Below, in pieces: positions 3,800 to 38,715 of a stretch of 64,000 bases of DNA. The translations under genes and the position numbers were made by a program. Within the stretch, counting starts at the first letter, position 1. Each line of letters opens with the position of its first letter. Below the pieces are notes generated by a model. That model worked only from the letters and a program-made list of their open reading frames with translations, ran no database searches and had not been told where the DNA came from. The stretch is from Clostridia bacterium (GTDB taxonomy: Bacteria > Bacillota > Clostridia > UMGS1810), in assembly GCA_017436905.1 (NCBI GenBank), contig JAFSCF010000014.1, forward strand, positions 62,001-126,000, in the 5' to 3' direction.

Positions 3800-3896
3800 A
3801 ATTGGCGTCAGAGAAATCTGGCATAAAGGTAAGACTGAAAACAGTGTAAAAACTGGGCGGTTATGCCATCATCTCTATAAAAGGAGGTGATCGCTT

Positions 3897-3968
3897 ATGG
3901 ACGAGAATTACATAATTACTTTTATGATAATTTTATTGCTTTCGTTAGCATTAACCATAAAAAAATAA
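3897..3968 (+). CDS. Putative type I toxin-like membrane peptide (23 aa)
   Basis: A 23-codon frame, MDEN followed by one hydrophobic helix rich in Ile/Leu and ending in KK. It is preceded at 3881-3892 by AAGGAGGTGATC, a full-length match to the anti-Shine-Dalgarno end of 16S rRNA. It has its own promoter and its stop codon lies within an 11-bp terminator stem. A strong promoter runs toward it from the other side (see the antisense RNA). One short hydrophobic peptide, an exceptional ribosome site and a converging antisense RNA together describe small holin-like type I toxins of Firmicutes. The toxin role is inference; no family match could be run. The gene is too short for ordinary gene callers. 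Confidence 0.7.
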   Translation: MDENYIITFMIILLLSLALTIKK

Positions 3969-4042
3969 CACGCCCCGTCAAAGCCGTGTTATTTTAAAAT
4001 AATACCGTTTTGGCATAACCGTTTGAAGTCTTGCCTTTTTCT
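3955..4042 (-). ncRNA. Antisense RNA converging on the 23-codon peptide gene
   Basis: Predicted ~85-nt transcript from the minus-strand promoter at 4049-4077, ending at the shared hairpin 3962-3995 followed by a T-run. It overlaps the last codons and terminator of the peptide mRNA. Its 5' part carries AAAGGCAAGACT and CGGTTATGCCA. The peptide leader carries AAAGGTAAGACT and CGGTTATGCCA on the other strand, so the two RNAs have related leaders. Its UUAUGCCA can pair with UGGCAUAA in the peptide leader. This is the arrangement of type I antitoxin RNAs; the function is inferred. Confidence 0.65.
3962..3995. terminator. Shared bidirectional terminator of the toxin-like locus
   Basis: Perfect 11-bp arms AAAATAACACG (3962-3972) and CGTGTTATTTT (3985-3995) with a 12-base loop. 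The T-run is strongest on the minus strand, which terminates the antisense RNA. Confidence 0.8.
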
Positions 4043-4126: not shown

Positions 4127-4155
4127 TTGCAAAATCACACACTTAATGATATAAT
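4127..4155 (+). promoter_or_regulatory. Promoter of hairpin RNA copy 1
   Basis: TTGCAA (4127-4132), 17 bp, TATAAT (4150-4155), then four bases to TTGCGACATA. Copy 2 at 38.5 kb has the same four-base spacing, so the promoter appears to be part of the repeated unit. Confidence 0.8.
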
Positions 4156-4161
4156 AAATTT

Positions 4162-4305
4162 GCGACATAGTTTAATATTATATACCTGCAAGTTTACGTT
4201 TGTTAAAAACGTATGCTTTGTTTGTTATACTTGTAGGTATAAACTATGTCGCAATAGGAACAAGGCTGCGTTTTTTTGCGTGGCTTTGTGCCACGCATTT
4301 TTTAT
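4162..4305 (+). ncRNA. Hairpin small RNA, UUGCGACAUA family, copy 1
   Basis: Predicted ~144-nt RNA. The 5' arm TTGCGACATAGTTTA (4160-4174) pairs with TAAACTATGTCGCAA (4240-4254). A second helix, 4181-4193 with 4229-4241, continues the rod, with a bulge on the 5' side. A linker containing AGGAA follows, then a terminator stem TGCGTGGC/GCCACGCA (4277-4284 with 4290-4297) and a T-run. No reading frame with a ribosome site lies inside. Copy 2 at 38343-38489 has the same promoter spacing, closing sequence, linker motif and length. The inner helices differ in sequence but keep the fold. I do not recognise the RNA family. Confidence 0.7.
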
Positions 4306-4381
4306 TTTAAGAGGGTGATACCTTTGGGCATTTAAAGAACATATCATATGGAACAAGTAACAGAAAAAATATTTTCCTGCT

Positions 4382-4397
4382 TTGCGACATAACTGAA
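4382..4397 (+). repeat. Solo copy of the TTGCGACATAACTGAA sequence
   Basis: Sixteen bases identical to the 5' end of hairpin RNA copy 2, without the second arm and without a promoter at the usual spacing. It abuts the terminator of the XRE gene. Probably a remnant of a third copy. Confidence 0.6.
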
Positions 4398-4424
4398 AAA
4401 GGGCACGGATAACTCCGTGCCCTT
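4396..4424 (-). terminator. Terminator of the XRE regulator gene
   Basis: Stem GGGCACGG (4401-4408) with CCGTGCCC (4415-4422), followed on the minus strand by TTTTT. Confidence 0.8.
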
Positions 4425-38004: not shown

Positions 38005-38040
38005 AAAACTCCCCGTTTAATATAACGGGGAGTTTTCTTT
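38005..38040. terminator. Bidirectional terminator after guaB
   Basis: Thirteen-bp arms AAAACTCCCCGTT (38005-38017) and complement (38024-38036); T-run on the plus strand. It overlaps the stop of the convergent small gene. Confidence 0.85.
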
Positions 38041-38322
38041 TTTCCAACCTAAAATAAAGCCCATTTCAAAAAACAATTCTCTTTCGCATTTTATATACAA
38101 ATCTATCATTTCATTAAGTAGTTCTGTTTCGTTTTCGTTAAGTTTGGACTCTGCAATTTGGCGTATAACTTTCTTGGCAAGTTTTGTATCGCTTGAAGCG
38201 TTTTTAAAAGATAAATCGTAATCATAATGTTCATTTTCAAGTATATCTTTTAAATCTTCTTCTAAATATGTCATTCCGACGCTTGCAAGTATTCGTCTTA
38301 ATCTTGTTCTGTTTATGTCCAT
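38017..38322 (-). CDS. Small helical protein with C-terminal FExGxxLGxK motif (second copy)
   Basis: A 101-residue, charged, predicted helical protein. The ATG has GGGGG upstream. Its C-terminal FFEMGFILGWKKE corresponds to YFEAGMLLGAK of the protein at 4805-5107; elsewhere the two differ. Its ATG lies 20 bases after the T-run of hairpin RNA copy 2. The only promoter I see upstream is that of the RNA, so expression would require read-through of the terminator. Function unknown. Confidence 0.75.
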   Translation of the reverse strand: MDINRTRLRRILASVGMTYLEEDLKDILENEHYDYDLSFKNASSDTKLAKKVIRQIAESKLNENETELLNEMIDLYIKCERELFFEMGFILGWKKENSPLY

Positions 38323-38342: not shown

Positions 38343-38489
38343 AAAAAAGGTGCGTCCGCAAAGGAACGCACCCAAAAAGTGCTTCCTGTTTGTTTGCGAC
38401 ATAACTCATTCCAGTGGGTACGAGTAACAGGAGAACACCTTTTGACAGGTATTCTCCCACTGGAATTCTTGCTTATTCAGTTATGTCGC
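38343..38489 (-). ncRNA. Hairpin small RNA or leader, UUGCGACAUA family, copy 2
   Basis: Predicted ~147-nt RNA. The closing helix TTGCGACATAACT (38491-38479) pairs with AGTTATGTCGCAA (38406-38394). A second helix, 38456-38466 with 38408-38418, continues it, and a third is formed by GGAGAACACCT and AGGTATTCTCC (38430-38440, 38447-38457). The linker ACAAACAGGAAGCAC and a terminator (38349-38357 with 38363-38372, T-run 38348-38343) follow. Linker GGAAGCAC could instead pair with GTGCGTTCC of the terminator 5' arm, which would make this an attenuator for the gene at 38322. It is paralogous to copy 1 at 4162-4305. Not a family I recognise. Confidence 0.7.
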
Positions 38490-38495
38490 AAGTAA

Positions 38496-38524
38496 ATTAT
38501 ACCATATTATAAAATTAAGGTCAA
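38496..38524 (-). promoter_or_regulatory. Promoter of hairpin RNA copy 2
   Basis: On the minus strand TTGACC (38519-38524), 17 bp, TATAAT (38496-38501), four bases before TTGCGACATA, as in copy 1. Confidence 0.8.
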
Positions 38525-38530
38525 GAGAAT

Positions 38531-38715
38531 AATTTTGGCTACGAAGCCATTTTGGTTTTAGGGGTTTTTAGGGGTGAAACCCCTGAACGGTTTTAGGGGT
38601 CCGGGGGAATCCGAACCCCCGGGACTTTTGGTACTTTTAGTCATAAAAGTACATTTAAAAATTTATTTTTAAAATAAAAGATTCTCCAAGGGGGCTTCCC
38701 CCTTGGCAACCCCCT
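38531..38715. repeat. Mosaic of GC-rich and AT-rich hairpins
   Basis: Non-coding stretch with several compact palindromes: AGGGGTGAAACCCCT, CCGGGGG/CCCCCGG, GTACTTTTA/TAAAAGTAC and CCAAGGGGG/CCCCCTTGG. Local GC content jumps relative to the flanks. It resembles intergenic repeat DNA of gut Firmicutes. No frame with a ribosome site lies in it. Confidence 0.55.

Follow-up and report, generated by a model that had tools for sequence, protein, structure and literature searches.

A class-wide family of structured RNA elements in Clostridia that probably act as promoter-driven, bistable attenuator leaders

The window analyzed here, a stretch of 64,000 nucleotides from a member of the Clostridia, contains the sequence TTGCGACATA five times as compared to 0.25 occurrences expected, a number reached by none of 100 shuffles. 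Two copies of an element lie in it, copy 1 at 4160-4305 on the forward strand and copy 2 at 38491-38343 on the reverse strand, and in both of them 4 nt separate a -10 box from TTGCGACATA. The sequence-only reading had described two loci with a sigma-A promoter whose -10 box lies four bases before this sequence, and both are indeed present. The features of the two copies and of their surroundings are as follows, with the strands of the switch described below named A to E.

4127..4155, forward: predicted promoter of copy 1, with -35 TTGCAA (4127-4132), a 17-nt spacer and extended -10 TGA-TATAAT (4147-4155; TATAAT 4150-4155); based on sequence and recurrence in the family
4160..4254, forward: rod of copy 1, with P1 (4160-4172/4242-4254), P2 (4181-4193/4229-4241) and apical hairpin A:B (4195-4201/4207-4213); based on fold z-score and P1 covariation
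4204..4226, forward: strand B of copy 1, predicted to pair with A (4190-4202) or C; based on B:C duplex energy and swap test
4255..4276, forward: strand C of copy 1, the linker UAGGAACAAGGCUGCGUUUUUU, predicted to pair with B or D; based on duplex energies and swap test
4277..4303, forward: intrinsic terminator of copy 1, with D (4277-4284), E (4290-4297) and U-run (4298-4303); based on sequence and D:E duplex energy
4362..4393, reverse: half element (P1-right, linker and C, inverted); based on sequence and homologous half elements in relatives
4401..4422, reverse: terminator hairpin of a convergent HTH gene (4678-4433; HTH_3 match), directly before the half element
38496..38524, reverse: predicted promoter of copy 2, with -35 TTGACC (38524-38519), a 17-nt spacer and extended -10 TGG-TATAAT (38504-38496; TATAAT 38501-38496); based on sequence and the family
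38394..38491, reverse: rod of copy 2, with P1 arms 38491-38479 and 38406-38394, strand A 38459-38446 and strand B 38444-38425; based on fold z-score and duplexes
38374..38391, reverse: strand C of copy 2, AAACAGGAAGCACUUUUU, predicted to pair with B or D; based on duplex energies
38343..38374, reverse: intrinsic terminator of copy 2, with D (38374-38363), E (38358-38347) and the U-run that follows; based on D:E duplex energy
38017..38322, reverse: gene after copy 2, 101 aa, with Shine-Dalgarno GGGGG (38335-38331) and its start codon 20 nt past the terminator U-run

The layout of rod and terminator proposed earlier for both copies was supported by their folding energies: rod plus terminator of copy 1 folds at -57.5 kcal/mol as compared to -30.4 kcal/mol for shuffled sequences (z = -8.1), and that of copy 2 at -63.5 as compared to -34.6 kcal/mol (z = -7.7), with none of 200 shuffles folding as well in either case. 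The linker containing AGGAA is present as had been described; it is, however, not passive, as it can pair with strand B on the 3' side of the apical hairpin, a complementarity found in all 21 copies first examined. Two further features lie nearby. A hydrophobic ORF of 23 aa, MDENYIITFMIILLLSLALTIKK, is located at 3897-3968 on the forward strand, with a strong Shine-Dalgarno sequence and within a long inverted repeat (about 3830-4035), and from its sequence it looks like a type I toxin mRNA. The palindromic, GC-rich repeat GGGGGAATCCGAACCCCCGGGACTTTTGGTACTTTT lies at 38603-38638 (forward strand); with up to 3 mismatches allowed, the genome contains 10 copies of it, four of which are found about 70-350 nt from RNA elements, on either side (C14, C7 and twice C11).

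When a pattern with both ends fixed was run against 84,980 species genomes, nine stretches were obtained, among which the sole convincing relative was a locus of an uncultured Clostridia genome (L008) with identical promoter spacing, rod, linker and terminator and a middle stem of different sequence that is yet paired; the other matches were rejected as relatives, their model scores being at or near chance. A covariance model from the two copies, which the sequence-only reading had suggested as a check, turned them into a class-wide family: this model (R1) recognized L008 at E 1e-10 together with a second copy within that locus, and it found a third copy in the genome of the window as well as further copies in relatives. 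A second model (R2), built from 20 copies with P1 alone given as pairs, matched in 14 of 16 genomes when run on the order and in 95 of 391 when run on the class, i.e., about a quarter of the class sample. In a phylum-wide sample of 399 genomes, which contains some genomes of the same class and was searched with the stricter filters that apply to searches of this size, the window's own genome was the single match at E up to 1e-4. By comparison of the R2 class search with this phylum sample, the element is specific to the class. The patterns gave no match in viral contigs (three patterns) or in plasmids (a single query); one viral contig (L018) matched a fourth, relaxed pattern and was rejected, as R1 does not recognize it. 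Longer variants (about 170-180 nt), in which the rod contains an additional hairpin, were seen at L170 1501-1668 and L173 1501-1679, and R2 matches of 170-190 nt were also present in several relatives within the order.

Copy numbers per genome are lower bounds, as the search scores a limited number of candidates, and the window's own genome holds about 8 copies or more, which are strongly diverged in sequence and differ from each other in P1, P2 and the apical stem; near-identical copies were not found among them. Tandem copies occur in the family. R2 found no element in the genomes G002 and G014, other genomes of the same genus carrying 4-10; if all copies were lost together in these two, this would point to a dedicated trans factor, or to mobility.

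In total, 91 elements with their context were collected, 83 of them non-redundant. The family RNA is predicted from sequence to be about 145 nt long and transcribed from its own promoter. Its consensus runs TTGa - 17 - TGnTATAAT, usually 4 nt, and P1-left (tTGCgACAcAa), followed by an internal loop in which T and A are conserved, then by P2 and an apical hairpin containing TTtGGtAAAAAtgcAtgCTcTnTTT, after which come P2-right, P1-right, the linker gGAGntntGcnTTTTT and the terminator. A -10 box with at least five of six matches is present in 78 of the 83 non-redundant copies, in 59 of which it stands exactly 4 nt from the element. The transcription start, expected about 7 nt past the -10 box, would fall within the first bases of P1, which would place the closing stem at the very start of the RNA. 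Conserved bases are T, A and A in the left internal loop (77-87%) and UUU after strand B (78-87%), while the AAAA of strand B and the UUUUU of strand C hardly vary. Near-invariant unpaired nucleotides are few, fewer than classic metabolite aptamers show.

The variable helices keep their pairing. On A7, a MAFFT alignment built without structure information, P1 and B:C together were paired in 92.6% of the cells, with 15 pairs changed on both sides (9 of 13 P1 pairs and 6 of 12 B:C pairs) and a covariation score of 0.356, values not reached by any of 500 shuffles, whereas slid structures paired at 39-56%. The earlier suggestion of selection for structure is upheld by this covariation, and we conclude with very high confidence that the element is a structured RNA under selection.

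The pairing partners were resolved by a swap test over the 83 non-redundant copies, in which each copy's own duplex energy was compared with that of duplexes formed with the strands of other copies. Own strands paired more strongly in P1 (-19.5 vs. -10.2 kcal/mol swapped), A:B (-11.9 vs. -8.6 kcal/mol), B:C (-17.2 vs. -12.8 kcal/mol), C:D, the antiterminator on the 5' arm of the terminator (-16.0 vs. -12.0 kcal/mol), and D:E, the terminator stem followed by the U-run (-18.0 vs. -11.7 kcal/mol). The non-neighbouring combinations A:C, B:D, A:D, B:E and A:E showed no own-strand preference and lay within about 0.2 kcal/mol of the swapped values in these copies. The strands hence form a chain of ALTERNATIVES, with A:B, B:C, C:D and D:E as alternating neighbours. 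The outcome was the same in gene-leading and in other copies taken separately, and that for B:C also held without the A/U runs. Since each strand can have one partner, two exclusive states result, either A:B with C:D (antiterminator) or B:C with D:E (terminator). For copy 1 the duplexes were calculated at -9.9 (A:B), -20.1 (B:C), -18.7 (C:D) and -16.3 kcal/mol (D:E), which sum to -28.6 kcal/mol for the antiterminated (ON) and -36.4 kcal/mol for the terminated (OFF) state, and for copy 2 at -20.0, -19.1, -13.3 and -17.5 kcal/mol, respectively, with sums of -33.3 (ON) and -36.6 kcal/mol (OFF). The summed energies of both states are close, which fits the need of a switch. With P1 and P2 intact, B:C would be a pseudoknot.

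With downstream ORFs counted from 40 codons upwards, a ribosome binding site and start codon follow 15-55 nt past the terminator U-run in 40 of the 91 copies, mostly at 15-22 nt, and in about half of the copies there is no clear gene directly downstream. The 101-aa protein encoded after copy 2 matched no Pfam family at E 0.001 and gave a weak DUF6809 match at E 0.049. Among 35 downstream proteins scanned were BspA-type LRR proteins (five), one SLH protein, M23 and CHAP cell-wall enzymes, a protein with a copper-amine-oxidase N-terminal domain, AbrB/MazE-like proteins and a TerB protein; many of the 35 are short and without family, and the set shares no single common pathway. Furthermore, two unrelated short-protein families were traced across the class and 30 loci were read for each: the element lies upstream on the same strand, at 45-100 nt according to the distances in the table, in 8 of 30 loci of the first and about 13 of 30 loci of the second family. 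Its same-strand position ahead of both families indicates that it is kept before particular genes in different bacterial families.

Taken together, we propose that the family consists of promoter-driven, structured 5' leader RNAs whose main mode would be cis-acting, bistable transcription attenuation (probability about 0.7). Such leaders would be expected to stand on the same strand 5' of a gene, as found in 40 of 91 copies and not in gene-less ones such as copy 1, and to end in an intrinsic terminator with an exclusive antiterminator, both of which were identified. In the proposed mechanism, RNA polymerase would start at the 5' edge of P1 and the 5' portion of the transcript would fold as the rod (P1, P2 and A:B). 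In the OFF state, strand C would invade the apical hairpin to take over B as its partner, by which D would be freed to form the terminator with E; in the ON state, A:B would hold and C would pair with D as antiterminator, allowing read-through to a gene whose start codon lies about 20 nt further on. The pairings would alternate during transcription and the states interconvert in the cell, with a signal, be it a metabolite, a protein or a physical condition, presumably selecting between them. In gene-less copies such as copy 1 the same switch may yield either a terminated or a longer small RNA. The leader is possibly a riboswitch. Counting against the attenuator reading are the lack of a clear gene directly 3' of about half of the copies, the lack of a common pathway among the downstream genes, the few near-invariant unpaired bases and the pseudoknot that B:C would have to form.

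The signal might instead be a physical state, such as temperature, transcription speed or nucleotide level, sensed by the switch in place of a ligand or protein. This idea arises from the A/U runs held by the switching strands, almost invariant in B and C, and from the nearness in energy of the two states computed for both window copies. Nevertheless, the B:C pairing alone also accounts for the A/U runs, and the conserved bases outside the switching pairs (T, A and A of the internal loop, UUU after B) suggest a recognized site, so we give this reading little credence. It is likewise improbable that the terminated RNA of about 145 nt is itself the product, acting in trans as a small RNA, with the terminator merely its 3' end and the nearby genes incidental or extra. 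An own promoter, a 5' end closed in P1, a strong terminator and the many gene-less copies, in which the switch pairings are equally present, are all in accordance with such a small RNA; a plain terminator, however, needs no pairing such as C:D, which is element-specific and rivals the terminator, and the nearly constant distance to the start codon in 40 of 91 copies and the recurrent gene families also speak against a small RNA.

Attenuation does not account for what accompanies the gene-less copies. Copy 1 has no gene and faces, past its terminator, a convergent half element. The sequence-only reading had taken this for a third, partial copy at 4382-4397, but it is not a broken rod: it comprises inverted P1-right, linker and C beyond the terminator of the HTH gene and recurs in relatives. 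A profile of P1-right, linker and C, run on the fetched loci and the window, gave 13 matches outside full elements. Eleven lie about 110-160 nt away from a full element and a twelfth at about 440 nt, nearly all of these being convergent and beside a terminator hairpin, whereas the match in L128 is a same-strand remnant. In the window, the half element scores below the profile threshold and was recognized by eye and by complementarity. Examples in L090 (4974-5006), L118 (4977-5007) and L123 (532-557) adjoin gene-less copies just past a gene's terminator. That half elements also flank gene-leading copies was rejected for want of support in the profile search. Their role as cis partner of the neighbouring P1-right, linker and C was rejected as well, since the swap test failed; showing no covariation with the neighbouring P1, the half element is not simply its pairing partner. 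It falls outside the attenuator model and counts against it.

These half elements bear on the question whether the family is a MITE-like mobile or repeat element with its own promoter and terminator, spread by an unseen enzyme. Multiple and tandem copies, the patchy presence with none detected in G002 and G014, and the abutting of gene-less copies on gene terminators with an inverted half element are compatible with this view. So is the site at fusA: a syntenic place there was rejected because, with a readable fusA 3' flank, only G000 and G003 of the 16 genomes of the order carry the element, and the fusA 3' flanks of the relatives are too diverged for an empty site to show. By contrast, the copies of a genome have diverged strongly but remain compensated across four pairings, near-identical copies being absent, and in different bacterial families the element keeps its register to the start codon within the same families of genes. 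Moreover, P1 is an inverted repeat that encloses neither the promoter nor the terminator, and unsystematic inspection showed no transposase beside the elements. The half elements are inverted but internal. A mobile element appears very doubtful to us, a slight chance being left to it by the unaccounted half elements and the patchy distribution. The sequence-only reading had left the choice between a new small RNA class and a MITE; covariation, class-wide spread and the lack of an Rfam match speak for a new class of structured RNA, and the MITE alternative has lost ground. What that reading had missed are the proposed switching role of linker strand C, the more diverged copies and the placement of many copies right before genes.

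The attenuator leaders proposed here apparently belong to a family undescribed so far. The sequence-only reading had not recognized it, and in Rfam 15 no family, including Clostridiales-1, 6S, T-box and riboswitch models, matched the window at gathering thresholds; around both copies, at E up to 10, there were sub-threshold matches only, and in 20 homologue loci no match coincided with the element. Sub-threshold candidates such as SR1 and Hrs12 were rejected, being located beyond the rod or owing their score mainly to the terminator. 6S RNA forms a long rod, has its own promoter and is present in more than one copy in some Firmicutes. Rod and own promoter are shared by this family, which differs in its lack of a match to the 6S model and in its rod of about 95 nt, downstream genes, terminator switch and about 8 diverged copies in the window's genome. 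Clostridiales-1 RNA (RF01699) is a non-coding RNA motif from Clostridiales and the human gut (PMC2864571), but its Rfam model gave no match around the copies even at E up to 10. Thousands of unnamed structured RNA candidates, some from Clostridiales, have been reported from gut bacteria (PMC8040213); the main-text passages compared here describe no family of promoter, rod, switch and terminator, and one of the candidates might overlap. Among the open papers searched on orphan riboswitches and RNA motifs in Clostridia no description was found; an earlier unnamed candidate from a large motif survey is possible.

Attenuating leaders and the expression platforms of OFF/ON riboswitches share with these RNAs the 5' leader position, the exclusive choice between antiterminator and terminator and the gene directly 3'. 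Here, by contrast, the promoter is within the conserved unit, P1 forms from the first transcribed bases, some copies are gene-less and face a convergent half element, and there is no Rfam homology. The alternating complementary strands ending in a terminator likewise resemble trp-type leader-peptide attenuators (1:2, 2:3, 3:4); in contrast to these, no leader ORF with a ribosome site is expected ahead of the strands from the anatomy, and the start of P1 right at the promoter speaks against a leader-peptide attenuator.

As to what the attenuator leaders would serve, we tentatively suggest, with a chance we place below even, a novel class of riboswitch or the regulon of a dedicated RNA-binding protein, in which one signal would act on as many as about 8-12 paralogous, bistable leaders in a genome, controlling surface proteins (BspA-type LRR, SLH, cell-wall hydrolases) and small uncharacterized proteins, with the gene-less convergent versions as companion RNAs. 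In this reading, B:C could form a pseudoknot or, together with strand A, a U-A-U triplex. Present in roughly one in four genomes sampled from the class, with many copies in each and without an Rfam entry, the family would represent a sizeable unread control layer, for which the strand-level model names the bases that would decide termination and the common element would define the regulon.
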